From NCBI GenBank assembly GCA_902586885.1, contig CACIJG010000011.1, positions 1 through 62,708 on the forward strand: 62,708 bases of DNA. Reading direction: 5' to 3'. The position numbers were made by a program, and so were the translations under genes. Positions 51,296 to 62,708 of the stretch are shown in pieces (position 1 is the stretch's first letter; each line of letters begins with the position of its first letter). Under the pieces are notes generated by a model. That model saw only the letters and a program-made list of their open reading frames with translations, searched no databases and was not told where the DNA came from. This stretch comes from an uncultured Alphaproteobacteria bacterium. GTDB lineage: Bacteria > Pseudomonadota > Alphaproteobacteria > Rhodobacterales > Rhodobacteraceae.

Positions 51296-52471
51296 CTAAA
51301 AGGGTAGACCAACATAATTCTCAGAAAATACCTTCTGTGCGTACTTTGAGTGTTCTAAGTAGTCAATTTCACTTAATTTTATTTTTCTATCAAATGGATC
51401 AGCACTTGGAAACTCATGCATAAGAGTGGTCATCCACCAGCTGAATCTAACAGCTTTCCAAATTCTTGAAAGAGCTTTTCCGGAATAATTTTCAAGTTCT
51501 ACTTTTCCTTTTCCCGCGTAAAACAATTTAAAAGCGTTGGATAGGTAAAAAACATCAGAAAAAGCTAGATTCAGCCCTTTTGCCCCGGTAGGCGGTACAA
51601 TATGCGCGGCATCTCCAACCAAAAATAACTGACCATATTTAAGAGGTTCTATAACGAAACTTCTCAGTGGGGCTATTGATTTTTCAATGGACGGTCCAGT
51701 TACCAAACTTCCCTTGAATTGCTCTGGTAGTCTAGCTCTAAGTTCCTGCCAAAAATAATTATCAGAATAATCCTCCGCTTTGGTTTTAAGGGAGCATTGA
51801 ATATAATATCGAGATAAACTCTCATTTCTCATTGAACACAAAGCAAATCCATCCCTTGTATTAGCGTAAATAAGCTCTTCACTAACTGGAGGTGTTTCGG
51901 ATAATATTCCTAACCAACCGAAGGGATATATTCGTTCAAATTCCTTCTTTTTATTTACTGGAATAGATTGCCTGCTAACACCGTGAAATCCATCACAGCC
52001 AACTACGAAATCAGATATTATTTTTTTCTTTAACCCGTTTTCATCATAGAATACAACTTCTGGGTTATTTTCTAAGGGATCTATGATTTGCACATCTGAA
52101 ACACCATGAATTATTTTGGCATCAATATTTTCCTGAGCATCGTATAAGTCTCTGGTTACCTCTGTTTGACCAAAAATGGTGACATTTTTTCTAACTGTAT
52201 CTCTAAAGGAAATCCTAAACGATTTGTTTTCAGAAGAAATCAAAGTACCATCGTGCCTGAACCCTTCTTCATAAACTCTCTTTCCCACTCCCGCTTTGTC
52301 TAACAGGCTCACAGTTCCCTGCTCTAGAACCCCTGCTCTTATTCTAGACAAGACGTGCTGCTTGGAATGCTTTTCAATTATTACTGTTTCTATACCCGCA
52401 TTCATTAAAATCTGAGATAGTAACAAGCCTGAGGGGCCTCCTCCAATAATTGTCACATTTGCTTTAATCAT
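51296..52471 (-). CDS. pobA: 4-hydroxybenzoate 3-monooxygenase
   Basis: A 391-residue flavoprotein close in length to Pseudomonas PobA (394). It shows GGGPSGLLLSQIL, the highly specific RIRAGVLEQGTVSLLDKAG, FGQTEVTRDLYDAQ, the VGCDGFHGVSRQ motif and GDAAHIVPPTGAKGLNLA. It converts 4-hydroxybenzoate to protocatechuate using NADPH and oxygen. Downstream ring-cleavage genes are not in this window. A strong hairpin lies about 20 bp upstream of the start. Confidence 0.9.
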   Translation of the reverse strand: MIKANVTIIGGGPSGLLLSQILMNAGIETVIIEKHSKQHVLSRIRAGVLEQGTVSLLDKAGVGKRVYEEGFRHDGTLISSENKSFRISFRDTVRKNVTIFGQTEVTRDLYDAQENIDAKIIHGVSDVQIIDPLENNPEVVFYDENGLKKKIISDFVVGCDGFHGVSRQSIPVNKKKEFERIYPFGWLGILSETPPVSEELIYANTRDGFALCSMRNESLSRYYIQCSLKTKAEDYSDNYFWQELRARLPEQFKGSLVTGPSIEKSIAPLRSFVIEPLKYGQLFLVGDAAHIVPPTGAKGLNLAFSDVFYLSNAFKLFYAGKGKVELENYSGKALSRIWKAVRFSWWMTTLMHEFPSADPFDRKIKLSEIDYLEHSKYAQKVFSENYVGLPF

Positions 52472-52731: not shown

Positions 52732-52764
52732 ATACTATTAATAAATTTTATTTTGGAGATCTGT

Positions 52765-53904
52765 TTGGCTAAAATAATCTTAGACGCAATAGACGAAGAT
52801 ATAAAAAAATCTAAGGGTCTGCCTAATCATCATTATGTATCAAAAAAGATCTTTTCTTTAGAAACAGAAAAGCTTTTTTATAAGCAATGGTTTGGGGTAG
52901 GGTTTGGAAGAGATATTCCCAACCCTGGAGACATAGTTCCTTTAAAATTTCTTGGAATTCCAATTCTTTTAGTACGAAATCACGCTGGAGAAATAAATGT
53001 ATTTGAGAATGTATGTAGGCATAGAGGTATGCTCCTACTTGAAAAAAAGAAAAATACCCAGGGTCTAATAAGATGCCCATACCATTCATGGTGTTATAGC
53101 TTAAACGGAGAACTAAAGGCTACACCGCACGTTGGCGGCACAGGAGTAAATTTCCATAAAGATTTAGAAAAAAAAGATCTGGGTCTATTCAAGATAAAAT
53201 CTCATTTATTTTTGGACGTAATTTTCATAACCCTATCAGAAGAATGCCAGTCTTTTGAGGATACCCACAAAGAGCTTTTTAATAGGTGGGCAGATTACAA
53301 GAAGCCTCTCTTCTTCCAAAAGAAAGATAGTGAGTTCGAATTAAAAGTTAATTGCAATTGGAAACTAGCGATAGAAAATTATTGTGAAAGTTATCATCTC
53401 CCTTGGGTTCACCCCGATTTAAATACTGTGTCCAAACTTGAAGATCATTATAATATAAGTTCTAAGGGAAATTTCTCAGGACAAGGATCTAAAGCGTTTG
53501 AACAAATGAAGGATGAAAAGGGCAAAATTTTTCCATCTTTTTCAAATATTTCTTCCAAGTGGGATCATACCTCAGAATATATTTCGCTATTTCCCAATGT
53601 GATACTGGGCGTACATAAAGATCATATTTTTTCTGGAGTTCTGATTCCGAAGAATGAAAAGAAAACCATTGAACGCTTTTCAATATATTATTCCAAAAAA
53701 GATAGCCTAGGAGAAACGTTTAAAACACTAAGAAACAAGAATGCTAAATTCTGGAAGAATGTGTTTAAAGAGGATATTAATGTGGTTGAGGGCATGCAAA
53801 AAGGAAGAAAGGGTAAGTATTTTGACGGAGGTCGTTTCTCTCCAGTAATGGAAGAACCTACCCATATTTTTCATAAATGGGTAGCAAAACAATTAAGAGT
53901 TTAA
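52765..53904 (+). CDS. Rieske non-heme iron oxygenase, alpha subunit
   Basis: About 379 residues. The Rieske [2Fe-2S] ligands are in CRHRGM and CPYHSWCY, and the mononuclear iron site is in ENYCESYHLPWVHPDL. This is the ring-hydroxylating/quaternary-amine oxygenase family, which includes GbcA and carnitine monooxygenase. The substrate and reductase partner are unknown. I choose the TTG at 52765 because GGAG ends 6 bp before it; a TTG at 52753 precedes that site. Confidence 0.85.
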   Translation: MAKIILDAIDEDIKKSKGLPNHHYVSKKIFSLETEKLFYKQWFGVGFGRDIPNPGDIVPLKFLGIPILLVRNHAGEINVFENVCRHRGMLLLEKKKNTQGLIRCPYHSWCYSLNGELKATPHVGGTGVNFHKDLEKKDLGLFKIKSHLFLDVIFITLSEECQSFEDTHKELFNRWADYKKPLFFQKKDSEFELKVNCNWKLAIENYCESYHLPWVHPDLNTVSKLEDHYNISSKGNFSGQGSKAFEQMKDEKGKIFPSFSNISSKWDHTSEYISLFPNVILGVHKDHIFSGVLIPKNEKKTIERFSIYYSKKDSLGETFKTLRNKNAKFWKNVFKEDINVVEGMQKGRKGKYFDGGRFSPVMEEPTHIFHKWVAKQLRV

Positions 53905-55814: not shown

Positions 55815-56936
55815 ATGAAACATGAAGTTATAGAATTTTTCTCTAATTCAGATCTGGATAGCCTCCTTGAGCACTCAAATAGAATACGTGATCTTCATTG
55901 GGGTAAGGTTGTCACTTATTCACGTAAAGTTTTTGTACCGCTTACTAACATGTGTAGAAATACCTGTAGCTATTGTACTTTTGTCAAGGACCCCAACTCA
56001 GAAGAAGCTAATATTCTAACTAAAGATCAAGTTATTGACATTATTAAAGAAGGACAAAATAAAGGGTGTAAGGAGGTTTTGTTCAGTTTGGGAGAAAAAC
56101 CAGAGCGTCGTTATCCCGTCGCAAAAAAGGCTTTAAAAAAGATAGGTTTCGACACTATGGTAGATTATCTCAGGGAGGTTTGCCAACTAACCCTACAAAA
56201 AAGCAATCTTATTCCACATGTAAATGCAGGAACTCTCTCTTTGGAAGATATTAAAAAGCTGAAACCTGTAACGGCATCTATGGGGATGATGCTGGAAACT
56301 ACAAGTAAAAGGCTTACAAAAAAGGGACAGCCACATTATGCTTGCCCTGACAAGATGCCTGTTCAACGAATAAGAACTTTAGAAAAAGCAGGTGTTATGA
56401 AAGTTCCCTTTACGACTGGATTATTAATTGGAATAGGCGAGACTTTTTCTGAAAGAATTGATGCTCTTAAAACTATTAACCGAATTCACAAAAAACATGG
56501 TCATATTCAAGAGGTTATAATTCAAAACTTTCAAAGAAAGCCTGACATATTGATGAAAAATTCACCAGAACCGTCTAAAGAAGATATGATGCGAACTATA
56601 GCTACTGCCCGAATAATTTTAAGCCCCGATATAAGTATTCAAGTGCCACCTAATCTAAGCAATTCTCATTTGGAGTTACTAGATGCTGGCATAAACGATT
56701 GGGGAGGCATTTCACCAGTTACCATTGATTTTATAAACCCACAGCATTCATGGCCTCATTTAGAAGATTTAAAAAAAGGTACAGAATCTAAAGGCTTTAA
56801 ATTAAAGGAACGGCTCACAATTTACCCAAAATATCAGAGAAAATTGGGTTTTGTGAGCAACAAAATTGAAAATCATATTTGTGCATTAGCCGATAATGAC
56901 GGGTTGGCAAGTGATCAGCACTTGGAGGTTATTTAA
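55815..56936 (+). CDS. cofG: FO synthase subunit 1 (7,8-didemethyl-8-hydroxy-5-deazariboflavin synthase)
   Basis: A 373-residue radical-SAM protein. The [4Fe-4S] cluster motif is CRNTCSYC at residues 47-54, and FVPLTNMCRN, LFSLGEKPE and FQRKPDILMKNSPEP are typical of CofG. With CofH it forms the 5-deazaflavin chromophore FO of cofactor F420 from a ribityl-diaminouracil and tyrosine adduct. It is the first gene of a seven-gene run; the cofH start follows after 4 bp. Confidence 0.93.
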   Translation: MKHEVIEFFSNSDLDSLLEHSNRIRDLHWGKVVTYSRKVFVPLTNMCRNTCSYCTFVKDPNSEEANILTKDQVIDIIKEGQNKGCKEVLFSLGEKPERRYPVAKKALKKIGFDTMVDYLREVCQLTLQKSNLIPHVNAGTLSLEDIKKLKPVTASMGMMLETTSKRLTKKGQPHYACPDKMPVQRIRTLEKAGVMKVPFTTGLLIGIGETFSERIDALKTINRIHKKHGHIQEVIIQNFQRKPDILMKNSPEPSKEDMMRTIATARIILSPDISIQVPPNLSNSHLELLDAGINDWGGISPVTIDFINPQHSWPHLEDLKKGTESKGFKLKERLTIYPKYQRKLGFVSNKIENHICALADNDGLASDQHLEVI

Positions 56937-56940
56937 TCAA

Positions 56941-58182
56941 ATGACAAAATTATTCTCCTTCAAAGATGAAAATAAAACCGATATTAATTGGAGTAATTGC
57001 TCTGGTACCGTTAGATCAATTTTGGAAGGTTATCTGGCAGGTAAAGAAATATCAGTACAAGATGGAATTCAGCTGTTTTCTTCAGGACCCGCTGATGAAA
57101 AATTTATTTGTGATATTGCAAATCAAATTAGAAAGGAAAAAACTGGGGATGTTGTATCTTTTGTCGTGAATAGAAATATAAATTTCACCAATATTTGTTA
57201 TATGGGTTGTAAATTTTGCAATTTTAGCAAAAGAATAGAAGATAAGGGTGCTGAATGGTTAACTATAGAACAAATTGTTGAAAGAGCTAAAGAAGCACAT
57301 AGTAGAGGTGCAACCGAAATATGCGTACAAGGTGGTCTACACCCTAAGCTTTCTGCAAATTTTTACAGAGACATTTTATTAAGTGTAAAAAAAGAAATTC
57401 CAGACCTACATATACACGCATTTTCTCCGTTCGAAATTTGGTATGGAGCCTCAAAGTCAAAATTAAGCTATAAAGACTTTCTTTCTGATCTAAAAGAATG
57501 TGGTTTAGATTCAATGCCAGGAACAGCTGCAGAAATTTTAGACACTGACGTAAGGAAGCAACTAACCCAGAATAAGCTTAGTACAGATAGTTGGGTCGAA
57601 ATTATAAAAGAGGCTCATTTTCTTGGAATCCCTACATCCTCAACTATTATGTACGGACACATAGATGGTCCTGAACATTGGGCAAATCATTTAGTAAAGT
57701 TAAGGAATATTCAAAAGGACACTAATGGGTTTACCGAGTTAGTACCTCTCTCTTTTGTTTATAAAGATTCACCTCTTTATTTGAATAGCAAGGGTACTGT
57801 AAGAAAGGGTCCAAATAAAAGTGAAGTAAATAAAATGCATGCAGTGTCTCGACTTTTGCTATCAGGATGGATAGATAACATTCAAGTTTCATGGACAAAG
57901 CTTGGCTTGGAACGGGCTAGCGAACTATTAAATTATGGTGTTAATGATTTAGGCGGAACCCTAATGAATGAGAGCATATCTCGCTCTGCAGGGTCAGACT
58001 TTGGACAAGAGATAACCTCATTTGAGTTAGTCAAATTAATTAGATCGATAGGGAAAATACCTATCCAGAGAACTACTTTGTATCAACCTTTGTTTGATTT
58101 TTCTCAAAAAGACCCAACAGAAACAGCGCCCCTTGTGGACAGAACTAGCCGGAAAACCATTGATTTTATAAACCAGCTTTAG
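56941..58182 (+). CDS. cofH: FO synthase subunit 2 (tyrosine/aminouracil radical-SAM transferase)
   Basis: About 413 residues with the radical-SAM motif CYMGCKFC at residues 86-93. ICVQGGLHPKLS and AFSPFEIWYGAS are shared with CofH and MqnC-like enzymes. It joins the 4-hydroxybenzyl group of tyrosine to 5-amino-6-ribitylaminouracil. I use the ATG at 56941, which lies 4 bp after cofG; an in-frame ATG at 56896 would overlap cofG by 41 bp. The cofG-cofH order mirrors the fused actinobacterial FbiC. Confidence 0.92.
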   Translation: MTKLFSFKDENKTDINWSNCSGTVRSILEGYLAGKEISVQDGIQLFSSGPADEKFICDIANQIRKEKTGDVVSFVVNRNINFTNICYMGCKFCNFSKRIEDKGAEWLTIEQIVERAKEAHSRGATEICVQGGLHPKLSANFYRDILLSVKKEIPDLHIHAFSPFEIWYGASKSKLSYKDFLSDLKECGLDSMPGTAAEILDTDVRKQLTQNKLSTDSWVEIIKEAHFLGIPTSSTIMYGHIDGPEHWANHLVKLRNIQKDTNGFTELVPLSFVYKDSPLYLNSKGTVRKGPNKSEVNKMHAVSRLLLSGWIDNIQVSWTKLGLERASELLNYGVNDLGGTLMNESISRSAGSDFGQEITSFELVKLIRSIGKIPIQRTTLYQPLFDFSQKDPTETAPLVDRTSRKTIDFINQL

Positions 58183-58191
58183 TTTATAATT

Positions 58192-59130
58192 ATGAATACA
58201 ACTATTAAAATAACGCTTTTAGCCGGTGGTGTTGGTGGCGCAAAAATGGCAGAGGGCTTTTCTGCTTTGCAAAATATTGAACTGTCAATAATTGGTAACA
58301 TTGGTGATGATGATGAGTTCCATGGTCTAAGAGTTTCACCTGACATAGATACCATTACTTACACATTATCTGGAATAGTAAATCGCGAGCAAGGATGGGG
58401 TATAAAGGATGAAAGTTTTAGGGCGCTTGATATGCTCAAGAAATTGGGTAATAAAACATGGATGACATTAGGTGACTCAGATTTTGGACTTCACATTTAC
58501 AGGAGTCAACAATTATTAGAAGGCTCAAAACCCAGTGATATAGCCAAAGATATTGCTAAAAAACTGGGAGTAAAAGCCAAAATAATTTTGCCAACTGATG
58601 ACAAAATTAGAACGCTAGTAAAAATAAGTGAAGGCTGGATCTCTTTCCAAGAGTACTTCGTCAAGAGAAAATGCATCCCAAAGATATTAGATCTTAAATA
58701 CTCGGGAATAAAAAAAGCCAAAATCAATTTAGATGCAATCAAAGCTATTGAAGTCGCCGATTTTATAGTGATCGCCCCATCAAATCCTCTTGTGAGCATA
58801 AAACCAATTATAGACATACCATCTTTCAAGAAAGCTATTAAAGACCATAGAAGAAAAGTAATTGCTGTTAGTCCAATCATTTCTGGGAAAACTGTTAAAG
58901 GTCCAGCAAGCAAAATGCTTAAACAGTTGGGATATAAATCAAATGCGTTTGCGGCACTAAATTTTTATAAAAATATATGTGATAATTTTGTAATAGATCA
59001 TTCAGATAAAAATTTTAAAGATCAGTTCAAAAACAGGGGGCAACGTTGTTACATGACAAATATTCTTATGAGCTCTATAAAAGATAAGAAATCTTTGGCC
59101 CAGACGTTAATTAAAATTCTGTCGCAATAA
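58192..59130 (+). CDS. cofD: 2-phospho-L-lactate (or analogue) transferase
   Basis: A 312-residue CofD/FbiA homologue. Its diagnostic features are LAGGVGGAKMAEGF, NIGDDDEFHGLRVSPDIDTITYTLSG and LGDSDFGLH. It attaches the phospho-lactyl, phosphoglyceryl or phosphoenolpyruvyl group to FO, giving F420-0 or a variant. It starts 9 bp after cofH. Confidence 0.93.
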   Translation: MNTTIKITLLAGGVGGAKMAEGFSALQNIELSIIGNIGDDDEFHGLRVSPDIDTITYTLSGIVNREQGWGIKDESFRALDMLKKLGNKTWMTLGDSDFGLHIYRSQQLLEGSKPSDIAKDIAKKLGVKAKIILPTDDKIRTLVKISEGWISFQEYFVKRKCIPKILDLKYSGIKKAKINLDAIKAIEVADFIVIAPSNPLVSIKPIIDIPSFKKAIKDHRRKVIAVSPIISGKTVKGPASKMLKQLGYKSNAFAALNFYKNICDNFVIDHSDKNFKDQFKNRGQRCYMTNILMSSIKDKKSLAQTLIKILSQ

Positions 59131-59143
59131 AGAAGACAAATTA

Positions 59144-59788
59144 ATGAGAAAAAAACAGAAAAAAAATCTTTTGGTTGTAGTCCCAATGAAAGATCTGCGA
59201 GAAGCAAAATCAAGGTTGAATGACACACTAACCGGAAAAGAACGAGAGCTTTTGGCAAAACTTTTATTTTTAAGAACACTAACAATTCTTAATACTATCA
59301 GATCAAACAATAAGAACTTTTTTGACATCGGTGTAGTTACCCAATCACTAACTATAAAAAACCTTATCAAAGAGTTTGATATATTTTTAATAGAGGAGAG
59401 AAGTAAAGGCTTGAATTTAGCACTTAAAGATAGCTATCTTTGGGCCTCTAAAAAGAATTATAAGTTTCTTGCTATCTTACCCGCGGACTTAGCTGATCCA
59501 AAACCTGACGAAATTTTGTCATTTCTAAATCATTATAAAGCTAACAGTGAACCAACAGTAGCTTTATGCCCATCAAATGATATGGGTACTAACGCATTGC
59601 TTTTATCCATACCTTCGAAATTAACATTTTGTTTCGGTCACAATTCCTTTATCAAGCATAGTGAGCTTTGCAAAAGTAAAGGCATTTTGCCCAAAATATT
59701 ACCATTTGCAAGCCTCAGAAACGATGTAGATACAAAATGGGATTTCAAAAGAATAAAGCATAAAAAGTTAGAGATAATTAAAAATTAA
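59144..59788 (+). CDS. cofC: Phospholactate guanylyltransferase
   Basis: A 214-residue nucleotidyltransferase. It starts with the CofC motif VVPMKDLREAKSRLNDTL, has LAILPADLADPKP for the metal site and ends with the LRNDVDTKWD segment. It activates 2-phospho-L-lactate, 3-phosphoglycerate or PEP with GTP for CofD. Which acid is used cannot be read safely from sequence. Confidence 0.9.
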   Translation: MRKKQKKNLLVVVPMKDLREAKSRLNDTLTGKERELLAKLLFLRTLTILNTIRSNNKNFFDIGVVTQSLTIKNLIKEFDIFLIEERSKGLNLALKDSYLWASKKNYKFLAILPADLADPKPDEILSFLNHYKANSEPTVALCPSNDMGTNALLLSIPSKLTFCFGHNSFIKHSELCKSKGILPKILPFASLRNDVDTKWDFKRIKHKKLEIIKN

Positions 59789-59791
59789 AAA

Positions 59792-60571
59792 ATGCTACAT
59801 GGATCAGTCAAAATAACTGCTATACCTCGAATACCTGACGTTCGAGAGGGTGACAACCTAGGAATGGTTATAGGAAAGGCACTTGATGACGCCGGTTTAG
59901 CACTTGAAGAAAGTGACATACTCTGTATAGCTCATAAAGTAGTCTCAAAAGCAGAGGGCAACATTGTTTTTTTAAACGATGTAAAGCCCTCTGAAGAAGC
60001 TATCAAATTAGGAAAGAAATTAAATAAAGACATAAGAAAAGTTGAAGTTATTTTAAGAGAAAGTCAAAAAGTAATAAGATCTTTTAAACGTCCAGAGCAA
60101 ATTGAAGGAACAATGATTTGTCAACATAAGTTGGGATTCATTTGCGCAAATTCTGGCGTTGATCAGTCAAATATAAAAGAGACAGATGCTGTAATCACAA
60201 TTCCTGAGAATCCTGACATGAGTGCTAACAAGCTAAGATTATTCTTGTCAGAAAAGTTTAATATCAAGAAACTAGGCGTAATTATAACAGATACTTTTGG
60301 TAGGCCTTGGAGAATAGGTCAAGTTAATGTGGCCATCGGTTTGTCTGGGGTTTCTCCTACTAAAAGGCTGCAGGGCCATGTCGATGCGTGGGGGAGAGAT
60401 TTATTAGTTACAGAACCAGCATTTTGTGATGAAGTCTCTGCGGCTTCTGGTCTACTCATGCACAAATCTGGGAAAACACCTGTGATTTTATTTAATGGCT
60501 TAGATTGGGAATTTGAGATAAGTAATGTAGAAAATATTTTGAGAAAAGAGAGTGAGGATATGTTCAGATGA
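59792..60571 (+). CDS. cofE: F420-0:gamma-glutamyl ligase, single domain
   Basis: A 259-residue CofE protein. Its hallmarks are [17 protein letters not shown] and [22 protein letters not shown]. It adds glutamates to F420-0. At 259 residues it matches archaeal CofE; the C-terminal FMN reductase domain of actinobacterial FbiB is absent. It starts 3 bp after cofC and overlaps npdG by 4 bp. Confidence 0.93.
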
Positions 60572-61236
60572 AAATTGCTATTTTAGGAGGCACTGGGCCT
60601 CAAGGTCAGGGATTGGCTTTGAGATTTGCAAGTTTGGGAATTGATGTCGCCGTGGGATCTAGAGACAAGCAAAGAGCAGAATCGGCTGCAAAAGAAATGA
60701 ATTCTCTGCTCGGAAATGAAAACGATAATATTACAGGCCTTAGCAATGAAGAAGCTGTAGAATATGCAGACGAATTTGTTATCCTTTCGGTTCCATGGTC
60801 TGGTCATGACGTAACATTAGAGTCCGTAAAAAAATATCTTCCTGGTAAAATCTTAGTAGACATTGTTGTCCCTTTAGCTGAAGGAAACCCCAGAAAAGTT
60901 GAAATGCCACCTCAGGGATCAGCTACCGAATCTGCACAAAGTATATTAGGCTCCGAAATACCTGTTATTGGAGCTCTTCATAATGTATCAGCGAACACTT
61001 TAAATAATTTGAAAAAAACAATAAACTGTGATGTGCTTGTTTGTGGAGATAATTTGGAGGCAAGATTAAAAATAATTGACTTTATTTCTAAGTTAGGTGT
61101 TAACGCATATAATGCTGGAGATGCTTCTGCTGCTAGATGTATTGAAGCTATAACACCAATATTGATAAGAATTAATATGTCAAAGGCGGTACCCTTTTCC
61201 CATGCTGGTATTAAAATTTGGGCACCAGAAAAGTAA
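60568..61236 (+). CDS. npdG: F420H2:NADP+ oxidoreductase
   Basis: A 222-residue protein with an N-terminal NADP-binding motif [19 protein letters not shown] and SRDKQRAE, then [10 protein letters not shown] and a conserved VSANTLNN region. It matches the NpdG/Fno family, which reduces F420 with NADPH or the reverse. It recycles the cofactor made by the five upstream genes. The ATGA overlap at 60568-60571 couples it to cofE. Confidence 0.9.
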
Positions 61237-61257
61237 ATTATTATAGGAGAAAATAAA

Positions 61258-62259
61258 ATGGAATTTGGTATATGTTTTAAGGGATTTGTTCAACCAGCTC
61301 GAGCTAAAGCATTGGTAAGACTAGCCGAAAGTGCAGGTTTTACCTACTGCTGGTTTTACGACAGTCATATTCTTTGGAGAGAAAGCTTTGCTCAAATGGC
61401 TATGTGTATCGAGCACACCACCAAAATGAGATTTGGACCTTGTGTTACAAATCCTAATACCAGAGACTGGTCACTAGCTGCCTCTATGTTTGGATCTTTA
61501 GCCTTGCAATCTGACGGAAGATTTGACATTGGCGTTGGCCGCGGAGACAGCGCAGTTAGAGTAATGGGACGGAAGCCATCAAATCTAGCCAATATGGAAC
61601 AGTTCATACTTGACGTAAAGGCTATGGTAAAAGGAGAGAAAGTGCAGTATGGAGATGTCCCTAACCCTATTCAGTTTCCATGGGCTCAAGGTTATGAGCT
61701 ACCAGTATGGGTGGCAGCATATGGACCGAAAGCTCTTACCTCAGCTGGAAAAGTTGGCGACGGGTTGGTCTTGCAGATCGCTGCACCAACAATATGTAAA
61801 TGGTTAAGGGATCAGGCAGTGAAAGCAGGAGAAGAACACGGAAGAGATATGTCAAACTATAGGGTCATGGCAGCGGCTCCAGCCTATTTTGGAGAAAGAA
61901 GTGAAAGCATAGAGAAAGTAAAATGGTTCCCGGCAATGGTTGGAAATCATGTTGCAGACATTGTTGAACGCTATGGAGAAAATAATAGTGAAATTCCTAG
62001 CAGCTTAACTGACTATATCAAAAATAGAAGGGGCTATGATTACTCAAAACATGGACAAAGCGACAACCCTTATCTAGAGTTCATAACAGATGATATTGTC
62101 GATGAATTTTGTGTTTTAGGCACAGCAAAAGAACACATAAGTAAATTGGAAAAATTGAAGGAAGTGGGTGTAACTCAATTTAATATATATTTAGATAGCG
62201 GTGATGAGGAAAGAATAATAGCTGAGTATGGTGATAGTGTAATTCCAGCCTTTTTATAA
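61258..62259 (+). CDS. F420-dependent LLM-class oxidoreductase (CPS_4043-like)
   Basis: A 333-residue TIM-barrel oxidoreductase of the luciferase-like monooxygenase class. Features are MEFGICFKGFVQPARAKAL, WFYDSHILWRESF, CVTNPNTRDWS, IGVGRGDSAVRVMG and PWAQGYELPVWVAAYGPKAL. These resemble the CPS_4043 subfamily, predicted to use F420. It would be the consumer of the cofactor in this operon. AGGAG (taggagaaaataaaatg) precedes the start. The substrate is unknown. Confidence 0.87.
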   Translation: MEFGICFKGFVQPARAKALVRLAESAGFTYCWFYDSHILWRESFAQMAMCIEHTTKMRFGPCVTNPNTRDWSLAASMFGSLALQSDGRFDIGVGRGDSAVRVMGRKPSNLANMEQFILDVKAMVKGEKVQYGDVPNPIQFPWAQGYELPVWVAAYGPKALTSAGKVGDGLVLQIAAPTICKWLRDQAVKAGEEHGRDMSNYRVMAAAPAYFGERSESIEKVKWFPAMVGNHVADIVERYGENNSEIPSSLTDYIKNRRGYDYSKHGQSDNPYLEFITDDIVDEFCVLGTAKEHISKLEKLKEVGVTQFNIYLDSGDEERIIAEYGDSVIPAFL

Positions 62260-62496: not shown

Positions 62497-62708
62497 GTGG
62501 GAAACTCTACTTATCTTTTGAAAAACGACGAGTTATTAGGCCACGTAGCAATGATATTTTTTTCTATTTTTGTTTCAGTCTCATATGTTCTAGGCTCGTT
62601 GGTTGCTAATGATATTGAGCCTGGAGCAATAACTGCTGCTCGTTTTTTTATTGGAGCTTGTGTTATGGGAGCATTAGTATTCGCAGTGAGAAAACGTAAA
62701 TTGGAAGA
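62497..62708 (+). CDS. Partial EamA/DMT-family transporter (3' end outside window)
   Basis: A frame from a GTG at 62497, with GGAG 6 bp upstream, runs off the window. The visible 70 residues include VAMIFFSIFVSVSYVLGSLVAN and EPGAITAARFFIGACVMGALVF, the first two membrane helices of an EamA domain. It is a different gene from the DMT transporter at 396-1298. Confidence 0.7.
   Translation, partial: MGNSTYLLKNDELLGHVAMIFFSIFVSVSYVLGSLVANDIEPGAITAARFFIGACVMGALVFAVRKRKLE

Follow-up and report, generated by a model that had tools for sequence, protein, structure and literature searches.

What does an alphaproteobacterium use coenzyme F420 for? The question is raised by a seven-gene operon in the window, the 62,708-nucleotide stretch of DNA analysed here, which is the entire contig C11 (CACIJG010000011.1) of a 1.84-Mb, 76% complete genome from an uncultured member of the Rhodobacteraceae (GCA_902586885.1). 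Seven open reading frames (ORFs), all on the + strand between 55815 and 62259, run in the order cofG-cofH-cofD-cofC-cofE-npdG-LLM, where LLM is a luciferase-like (LLM-class) oxidoreductase of family TIGR03842. We propose, with a probability of about 0.7, that the F420 made by this operon serves mainly one enzyme and that this enzyme, LLM, would reduce uracil or thymine with F420H2 and so take the place of PreTA, a uracil reductase that uses NAD(P)H. The proposal is based on gene content, gene order, conservation, the alternation of PreTA and LLM in matching clusters of pyrimidine genes, and the conservation of the uracil site in RutR-like regulators. The production of F420 by Alphaproteobacteria has already been published (FEMS review, PMC8498797), and the gene order is common among the marine proteobacterial relatives of LLM. 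This weakens the view, taken in an earlier note on this DNA, that F420 is unusual in a proteobacterium. Neither the cofactor in Proteobacteria nor the operon is new; an established use for them would be. The features are listed below, with bit scores and curated NCBIfam cut-offs for the seven genes.

55815..56936, + strand: cofG, FO synthase subunit 1 (radical S-adenosylmethionine, SAM); TIGR03550, 469 bits, cut-off 213
56941..58182, + strand: cofH, FO synthase subunit 2 (radical SAM); TIGR03551, 483 bits, cut-off 374
58192..59130, + strand: cofD, 2-phospho-L-lactate (or phosphoenolpyruvate) transferase; TIGR01819, 280 bits, cut-off 257
59144..59788, + strand: cofC, guanylyltransferase activating the side-chain acid; TIGR03552, 121 bits, cut-off 105
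59792..60571, + strand: cofE, F420-0:glutamate ligase, single domain; TIGR01916, 232 bits, cut-off 181
60568..61236, + strand: npdG/fno, NADPH:F420 oxidoreductase; TIGR01915, 193 bits, cut-off 150
61258..62259, + strand: LLM-class oxidoreductase, proposed F420H2-dependent uracil/thymine reductase; TIGR03842, 499 bits, cut-off 295
62497..62708, + strand: 5' part of a gene for an EamA/DMT transporter, truncated where the contig stops; from blastn to the syntenic locus of congener G021 and from translation

In profile searches all seven products scored above the curated cut-off for their assigned step, as expected from the earlier note's description of a full route to F420, a recycling enzyme and a likely user. 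The key motif agrees as well, with CxxxCxxC of radical-SAM enzymes present in the translations of both CofG and CofH. The tight same-strand spacing was borne out with one correction. In the ORF list cofH begins at 56896, which is 41 bp within cofG; the ATG at 56941, which is preceded by GGAGG, is the likelier true start and would leave a gap of 4 bp between the two genes. The remaining gaps are, in operon order, 9, 13, 3, -4 and 21 bp. A chance origin of this arrangement is very unlikely, since many other genera share the gene order. CofC contains FGHNSF, with a glycine three residues before the serine. A diagnostic serine in CofC marks producers of 3-phosphoglycerate-type F420 (3PG-F420) (PMC8764529); here a candidate for that serine was read by spacing only. 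The contig ends 449 bp past LLM, and the EamA/DMT gene begins at about 62497 on the same strand, so the unit extends past 62259. The genome contains two luciferase-like family genes, LLM and a contig-end fragment scoring below every cut-off of the listed families. There would therefore be few LLM-type clients of F420, the flavin/deazaflavin oxidoreductase (FDOR) and photolyase families being outside this search.

Pyrimidine genes and a missing uracil reductase

Reductive pyrimidine breakdown requires a uracil reductase, a dihydropyrimidinase (DHP) and a beta-ureidopropionase (bUP) (PMC7332683). The order LLM-DMT-bUP-DHP-ABC ATPase was found at 11 of 12 congener loci, bUP standing for a Zn-dependent hydrolase that is the probable beta-ureidopropionase; the twelfth locus ends after LLM. 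Permeases, an NMT1-type binding protein and a class III aminotransferase are encoded further along the cluster. Congener G021 has the same genes, with a small extra gene between LLM and the DMT gene. The window itself breaks off within the DMT gene; the later genes, in G021's order, are on another contig of this genome, C43. Their products are 98% (bUP-like hydrolase), 100% (DHP) and 98% (ABC ATPase) identical to those of G021, with 97% DNA identity over the 4.1 kb compared by blastn; judged by the coordinates of G021, a gap of about 200 bp separates the window end from C43. The DHP of G021 scored 583 bits on the dihydropyrimidinase model TIGR02033 (cut-off 393) and only 227 of 358 bits on the allantoinase model, and the DHP on C43 is also above the TIGR02033 cut-off. 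The Zn hydrolase of G021 belongs to the hydantoinase/carbamoylase family TIGR01879 (392 bits; cut-off 204). From context we regard it as a probable beta-ureidopropionase because its close relatives sit in PreTA clusters.

PreA was above the NF006183 cut-off in none of 22 genomes of the genus, which are 58-91% complete. Weak PreA hits in seven of them, reaching at most 47 bits, are probably dihydroorotate dehydrogenases. All three genomes looked at from other genera of the same family (G046, G276 and G178) carry preT, preA, bUP, DHP and ABC genes in that order, and their proteins are close to those of G021 (bUP 73-78%, DHP 64-82% and ATPase 74-77% identical).

DHP was above the cut-off in 82 of 289 class genomes, and we read the best-scoring DHP locus of 79 of these, some of them cut by contig ends, calling preA at 250 bits or more to E. 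coli PreA; G000, G312 and G220 were left out, G312 because it has LLM. At 27 of the 79 loci both DHP and bUP are at least 45% identical to those of G021, and preA is present at 25 of these 27 and LLM at none. At 15 loci DHP reaches at least 45% identity without bUP, and three of these have preA; the 37 loci with a more distant DHP have none. The order in G312 is LLM-bUP-DHP-ABC followed by a binding-protein gene (named by reading). We also examined 80 LLM loci from a scan of named genomes. These are the best 80 of 568 confirmed relatives, thus near kin and not a random draw, they are almost wholly proteobacterial, and their flanks span at most 10 kb, which makes neighbour counts lower bounds. 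Neither preA nor preT occurs within these flanks at any of the 80 loci. As a separate observation, two class loci (L258 and L259) have DHP, bUP-like and ABC genes with neither preA nor LLM nearby; the first step there may belong to a third kind of enzyme.

In the proposed pathway, CofG and CofH would build FO, CofC and CofD would attach the phospho-acid side chain, and CofE would attach glutamate. NpdG would pass electrons from NADPH to F420, and LLM would use F420H2 for the reaction that PreTA/PydA catalyses in other organisms, the reduction of uracil or thymine to the corresponding dihydropyrimidine. DHP and bUP would then yield beta-alanine (or 3-aminoisobutyrate), CO2 and ammonia, and the ABC transporter of the cluster probably imports the base. 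The redox potential of F420 is at or below that of NADPH, so F420 should be able to reduce uracil. We infer from sequence the cofactor and substrate of LLM, the bUP role of the Zn hydrolase and the joint expression of the genes. The compact layout had been taken to suggest a specific metabolic use, and for pyrimidine breakdown as that use there is now evidence.

The LLM enzyme and its relatives

The predicted structure of LLM is confident (pLDDT 87.9). By both sequence and fold its nearest solved relatives are structures of Mer, the F420-dependent methylene-tetrahydromethanopterin (methylene-H4MPT) reductase, some of them with F420 bound, followed in fold by the F420-dependent alcohol (Adf) and glucose-6-phosphate (FGD) dehydrogenases. 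By its fold and the F420 genes in its genome LLM falls into the F420-dependent luciferase-like hydride transferase (LLHT) group, and it is predicted to bind F420. It is not Mer itself, since it is below the cut-off of both Mer models (TIGR03555, 113 of 349 bits; PRK02271, 123 of 276 bits); Mer residue E6 is a cysteine in LLM. RutA is an LLM-superfamily enzyme that acts on uracil. A RutA-like uracil site in LLM was rejected (hhalign probability 0.5%, E 0.12), which leaves RutA as a precedent at the level of the superfamily only, and RutA hits over 200 bits occur at none of the 80 LLM loci. A literature search, mainly of open-licence papers, returned no F420-dependent uracil reductase, and no open-licence paper on family TIGR03842 was found.

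The earlier note proposed looking for the same operon in related genomes, and it is there: all five cof genes lie beside LLM at 55 of the 80 loci, at least one cof gene at 69 and npdG at 67. CofE was above the cut-off in 14 of 15 LLM genomes searched, 13 of which were chosen because their locus lacked the full cof set; the miss is a metagenome-assembled genome (MAG) in which the contig with LLM breaks off right before npdG. Pyrimidine genes are frequent neighbours (bUP at 41 loci, DHP at 26, either at 42), and their arrangement varies. They are downstream of LLM on the same strand in this genus and in Rhodobacteraceae CPC74, and upstream and divergent in Paracoccus denitrificans, Pseudovibrio and Marinomonas. 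Halomonas has LLM-bUP with DHP a few kb away, and a Pseudomonadales MAG has DHP-LLM with bUP on the opposite strand. P. denitrificans DSM 413 (L116) has this very gene order beside DHP and the Zn hydrolase, and its genome (G313) gave no PreA hit at E 1e-50. On a plasmid of Leisingera aquaemixtae, genes for hydA, a Zn hydrolase, an aminotransferase and an NAD(P) transhydrogenase are divergent from cofGHDCE-npdG-LLM-TetR; hydA, the DHP gene, and the Zn hydrolase gene lie 10-11 kb from LLM, hydA at about 11 kb. There the transhydrogenase could supply NADPH and the aminotransferase could take beta-alanine. DHP is 13 kb from LLM in Vibrio tetraodonis, apparently on one contig. In whole-genome searches DHP was above the cut-off in 48 of 49 LLM genomes, compared with 82 of 289 genomes in the class sample; the 49 came from the 71 non-genus loci (50 chosen), with isolates and cluster-bearing MAGs preferred.

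Other pairings of LLM with F420 genes were also observed. At four loci (L134, L147, L150 and L175; Roseibium, Roseisalinus and a Rhodobacteraceae MAG) LLM is divergent to a different F420 cluster, and the cofG and cofH genes of two of them, L134 and L175, fall with the fused FbiC types in trees, making this a second LLM-F420 gene pairing. G220 has two LLM copies (L100 and L101), 51-53% identical to LLM of the window, each beside different F420 genes. An LLM with 44% identity is located on the 2.8-Mb plasmid NZ_CP081497 of Streptomyces sp. BHT-5-2, where the PLSDB table has no gene annotated for it.

We also asked which regulators accompany LLM. A homologue of RutR (E. coli RutR query, at least 80 bits and at least 120 aa) is encoded at 37 of the 80 LLM loci, comprising 23 of 24 gammaproteobacterial loci, 13 of 54 alphaproteobacterial loci and one locus labelled Actinomycetes that is probably mislabelled. 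It often lies directly after LLM or directly before cofG, and one Leisingera copy matches RutR in the PDB with E 7e-45. Uracil displaces RutR from DNA and contacts W77, Y97, W167, Q171 and Q179 (PMC10891134). All five contacts are kept in 37 of the 37 homologues, compared with 37% identity elsewhere in the domain, in a comparison that covered TetR proteins of the RutR group only. In the class sample a RutR-like regulator is found at 25 of the 79 DHP loci; 21 of the 25 have all five residues, two of the four exceptions being incomplete matches. Of these 25 loci, 20 also have preA, which is present at 28 of the 79. Contig L124, recorded under the name Nocardioides marinus, carries a Leisingera-like F420 operon with RutR and is probably mislabelled or contaminated.

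Several observations weigh against LLM as a uracil/thymine reductase. LLM has no RutA profile similarity, and its substrate is therefore not readable from its active site. A RutR homologue occurs at none of the nine named loci of the genus itself, and to this the narrow scope of the residue comparison must be added. The best NCBIfam model of the Zn hydrolase is NF006769, which is named allantoate amidohydrolase (682 bits; cut-off 452). Neither DHP nor bUP is found within the flank at 38 of the 80 LLM loci. LLM occurs in four of the 289 class genomes (G000, G220, G282 and G312), and three of these have DHP; the fourth, G282 (98% complete, locus L098), has the full seven-gene operon without DHP above the cut-off, and its LLM may have a different partner or substrate. 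LLM is also present without DHP above the cut-off in Roseisalinus. Finally, PreA was found in 8 of the 49 LLM genomes when whole genomes were searched, so that LLM and PreTA can coexist. These are Shimia, three Leisingera, three Limimaricola and one Roseibium; all except Shimia have two DHPs, and the single DHP of Shimia lies about 3 kb from PreA.

A genome-wide rule of either LLM or PreA was considered and rejected. PreA is present in 0 of 30 genomes with DHP/bUP near LLM and in 8 of 19 without (Fisher p 1.7e-4, without correction for kinship), and the kinship-corrected test of LLM adjacency against PreA had only three pairs, which adds to the points against. Because of kinship, the three-pair test and the Leisingera DHP beyond the 10-kb flank, exclusivity is claimed per cluster and not per genome.

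DHP/hydantoinase and Zn-carbamoylase families are promiscuous. Together with the allantoate amidohydrolase model and the RutR-like regulator at just 37 of the 80 loci, this would fit an enzyme that reduces or oxidises another cyclic ureide or amide (hydantoin, an allantoin-related compound or a purine-derived one such as yanthine), with the hydrolases taking its product and uracil not the main substrate. For yanthine, a putative F420-dependent LLM enzyme has been proposed from uric acid gene clusters (PMC12507026). We regard another ureide as an unlikely main substrate: the DHP matches the dihydropyrimidinase model and falls below the allantoinase cut-off, genomes of the same family pair the same bUP-DHP-ABC cluster with PreTA, and the uracil contacts of RutR are kept in every homologue.

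The 38 loci with no pyrimidine gene in the flank and the operon of G282 are also what would be expected if the F420 genes and LLM served an unrelated redox step and the pyrimidine genes were adjacent because catabolic islands gather. The Paracoccus alcaliphilus plasmid, with no pyrimidine gene listed within 11 kb of LLM, points the same way. Such neighbourhood by accumulation appears improbable to us given that the link between LLM and pyrimidine genes recurs, in varied orders and on varied strands, in Alpha-, Beta- and Gammaproteobacteria, that a uracil-type regulator often adjoins cofG or LLM, and that nearly every LLM genome searched has DHP.

A role of LLM in reducing uracil or thymine thus remains the reading we prefer for the window. 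A broader version, which we hold tentatively and at slightly worse than even odds, is that F420 in marine Alpha- and Gammaproteobacteria is mainly dedicated to pyrimidine catabolism. The cof genes, the reductase and LLM would travel as a module, often beside RutR, and F420 would be made on demand with uracil.

Descent of the operon within the genus

CofG was above the cut-off in 18 of the 22 genus genomes (own included), LLM and NpdG each in 15 and CofE in 14. CofD had matches in 15 and was above the cut-off in four; ten more reached 246-255 of the required 257 bits, and the remaining match is a fragment. Given genomes that are 58-91% complete, such misses may be gaps. The compact seven-gene order was seen in G021 only among 17 congener cofG loci read. 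In all 10 congeners with both parts located, cofG-cofH-cofC is separate from cofD-cofE-npdG-LLM, and the latter locus shares upstream neighbours with the window operon. Plasmid-borne copies of the operon occur elsewhere, in Leisingera and P. alcaliphilus.

The compact order shared with G021 alone and the plasmid copies could suggest that this genome alone imported the operon recently and has no settled use for it. We consider this highly improbable. In the tree of cofD+cofE+npdG, ten congeners form the sister group of the window plus G021 (SH-aLRT 99), and identity among the LLM proteins of the genus loci is 86-100%. The guanine-cytosine (GC) content of the operon, 0.364, is ordinary compared with 0.354 +/- 0.016 in window stretches of equal size. 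In the tree of cofG+cofH the window lies beside Rhodospirillaceae SP279 with modest support (86), and a clade of window and congeners was neither rejected (approximately unbiased, AU, test, p 0.352) nor demonstrated. A recent horizontal import is thus unsupported by the trees and by GC. Our reading of the trees is that the operon probably has a history of descent within the genus plus rearrangement. The joined gene order is probably older than the split order because it is the common order elsewhere.

The earlier note also suggested that the operon was acquired as a unit, which our results support in part. Inside the genus, the grouping with the congeners, the ordinary GC and the split congener loci weaken the suggestion. 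A gain as a unit in the ancestor of the genus or earlier is still likely: among same-family genomes, none of three searched for CofG and none of three others searched for LLM had a hit above the cut-off.

Three further observations concern these loci. The cofH of G021 is split into two ORFs (L013, 9417-10704) by a frameshift that is either real or a sequencing error. Upstream of the operon, a gene for a Rieske ring-hydroxylating oxygenase (52753-53904) is also present in G021 and absent from 12 congener loci at the matching place. It adjoins pobA (51296-52471, TIGR02360 above the cut-off).

Relation to known F420 and pyrimidine systems

No established role of F420 in Proteobacteria is given in the cited part of the FEMS review (PMC8498797). 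The proposal would answer why the marine bacteria with this operon make F420, and synthesis on uracil demand would explain the trace amounts reported in P. denitrificans, a culturable species in which the finding is directly testable. If correct, there would be a deazaflavin-dependent dihydropyrimidine dehydrogenase unrelated to PydA, family TIGR03842 would have a function, and F420 would be linked to the recovery of nitrogen from nucleobases in the ocean.

The genes resemble the Pyd pathway (PreTA/PydA-PydB-PydC) in having DHP, a probable bUP, an ABC transporter and matching clusters in relatives. They differ in the first enzyme, which is usually PreTA with flavin mononucleotide (FMN) and Fe-S centres; here an LLM-class protein paired with F420 genes would serve. 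A Pyd cluster with another electron donor has been described in Clostridium chromiireducens, where PydAc is ferredoxin-dependent (PMC7332683). PydAc is still homologous to PydA, whereas LLM belongs to another superfamily. Mer is the nearest solved enzyme in sequence and fold, yet LLM fails the Mer models. F420 biosynthesis follows the same pathway in other Proteobacteria such as P. denitrificans; in the cited part of the review they are described with a fused FbiC (PMC8498797), whereas cofG and cofH are separate here. The closest published idea found is a putative F420-dependent yanthine reductase of Chloroflexota, for which an LLM-family gene (PF00296) is likewise thought to replace the usual reductase (PMC12507026). 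That enzyme belongs to a purine route in another phylum and is likened to LLM by description, not sequence.

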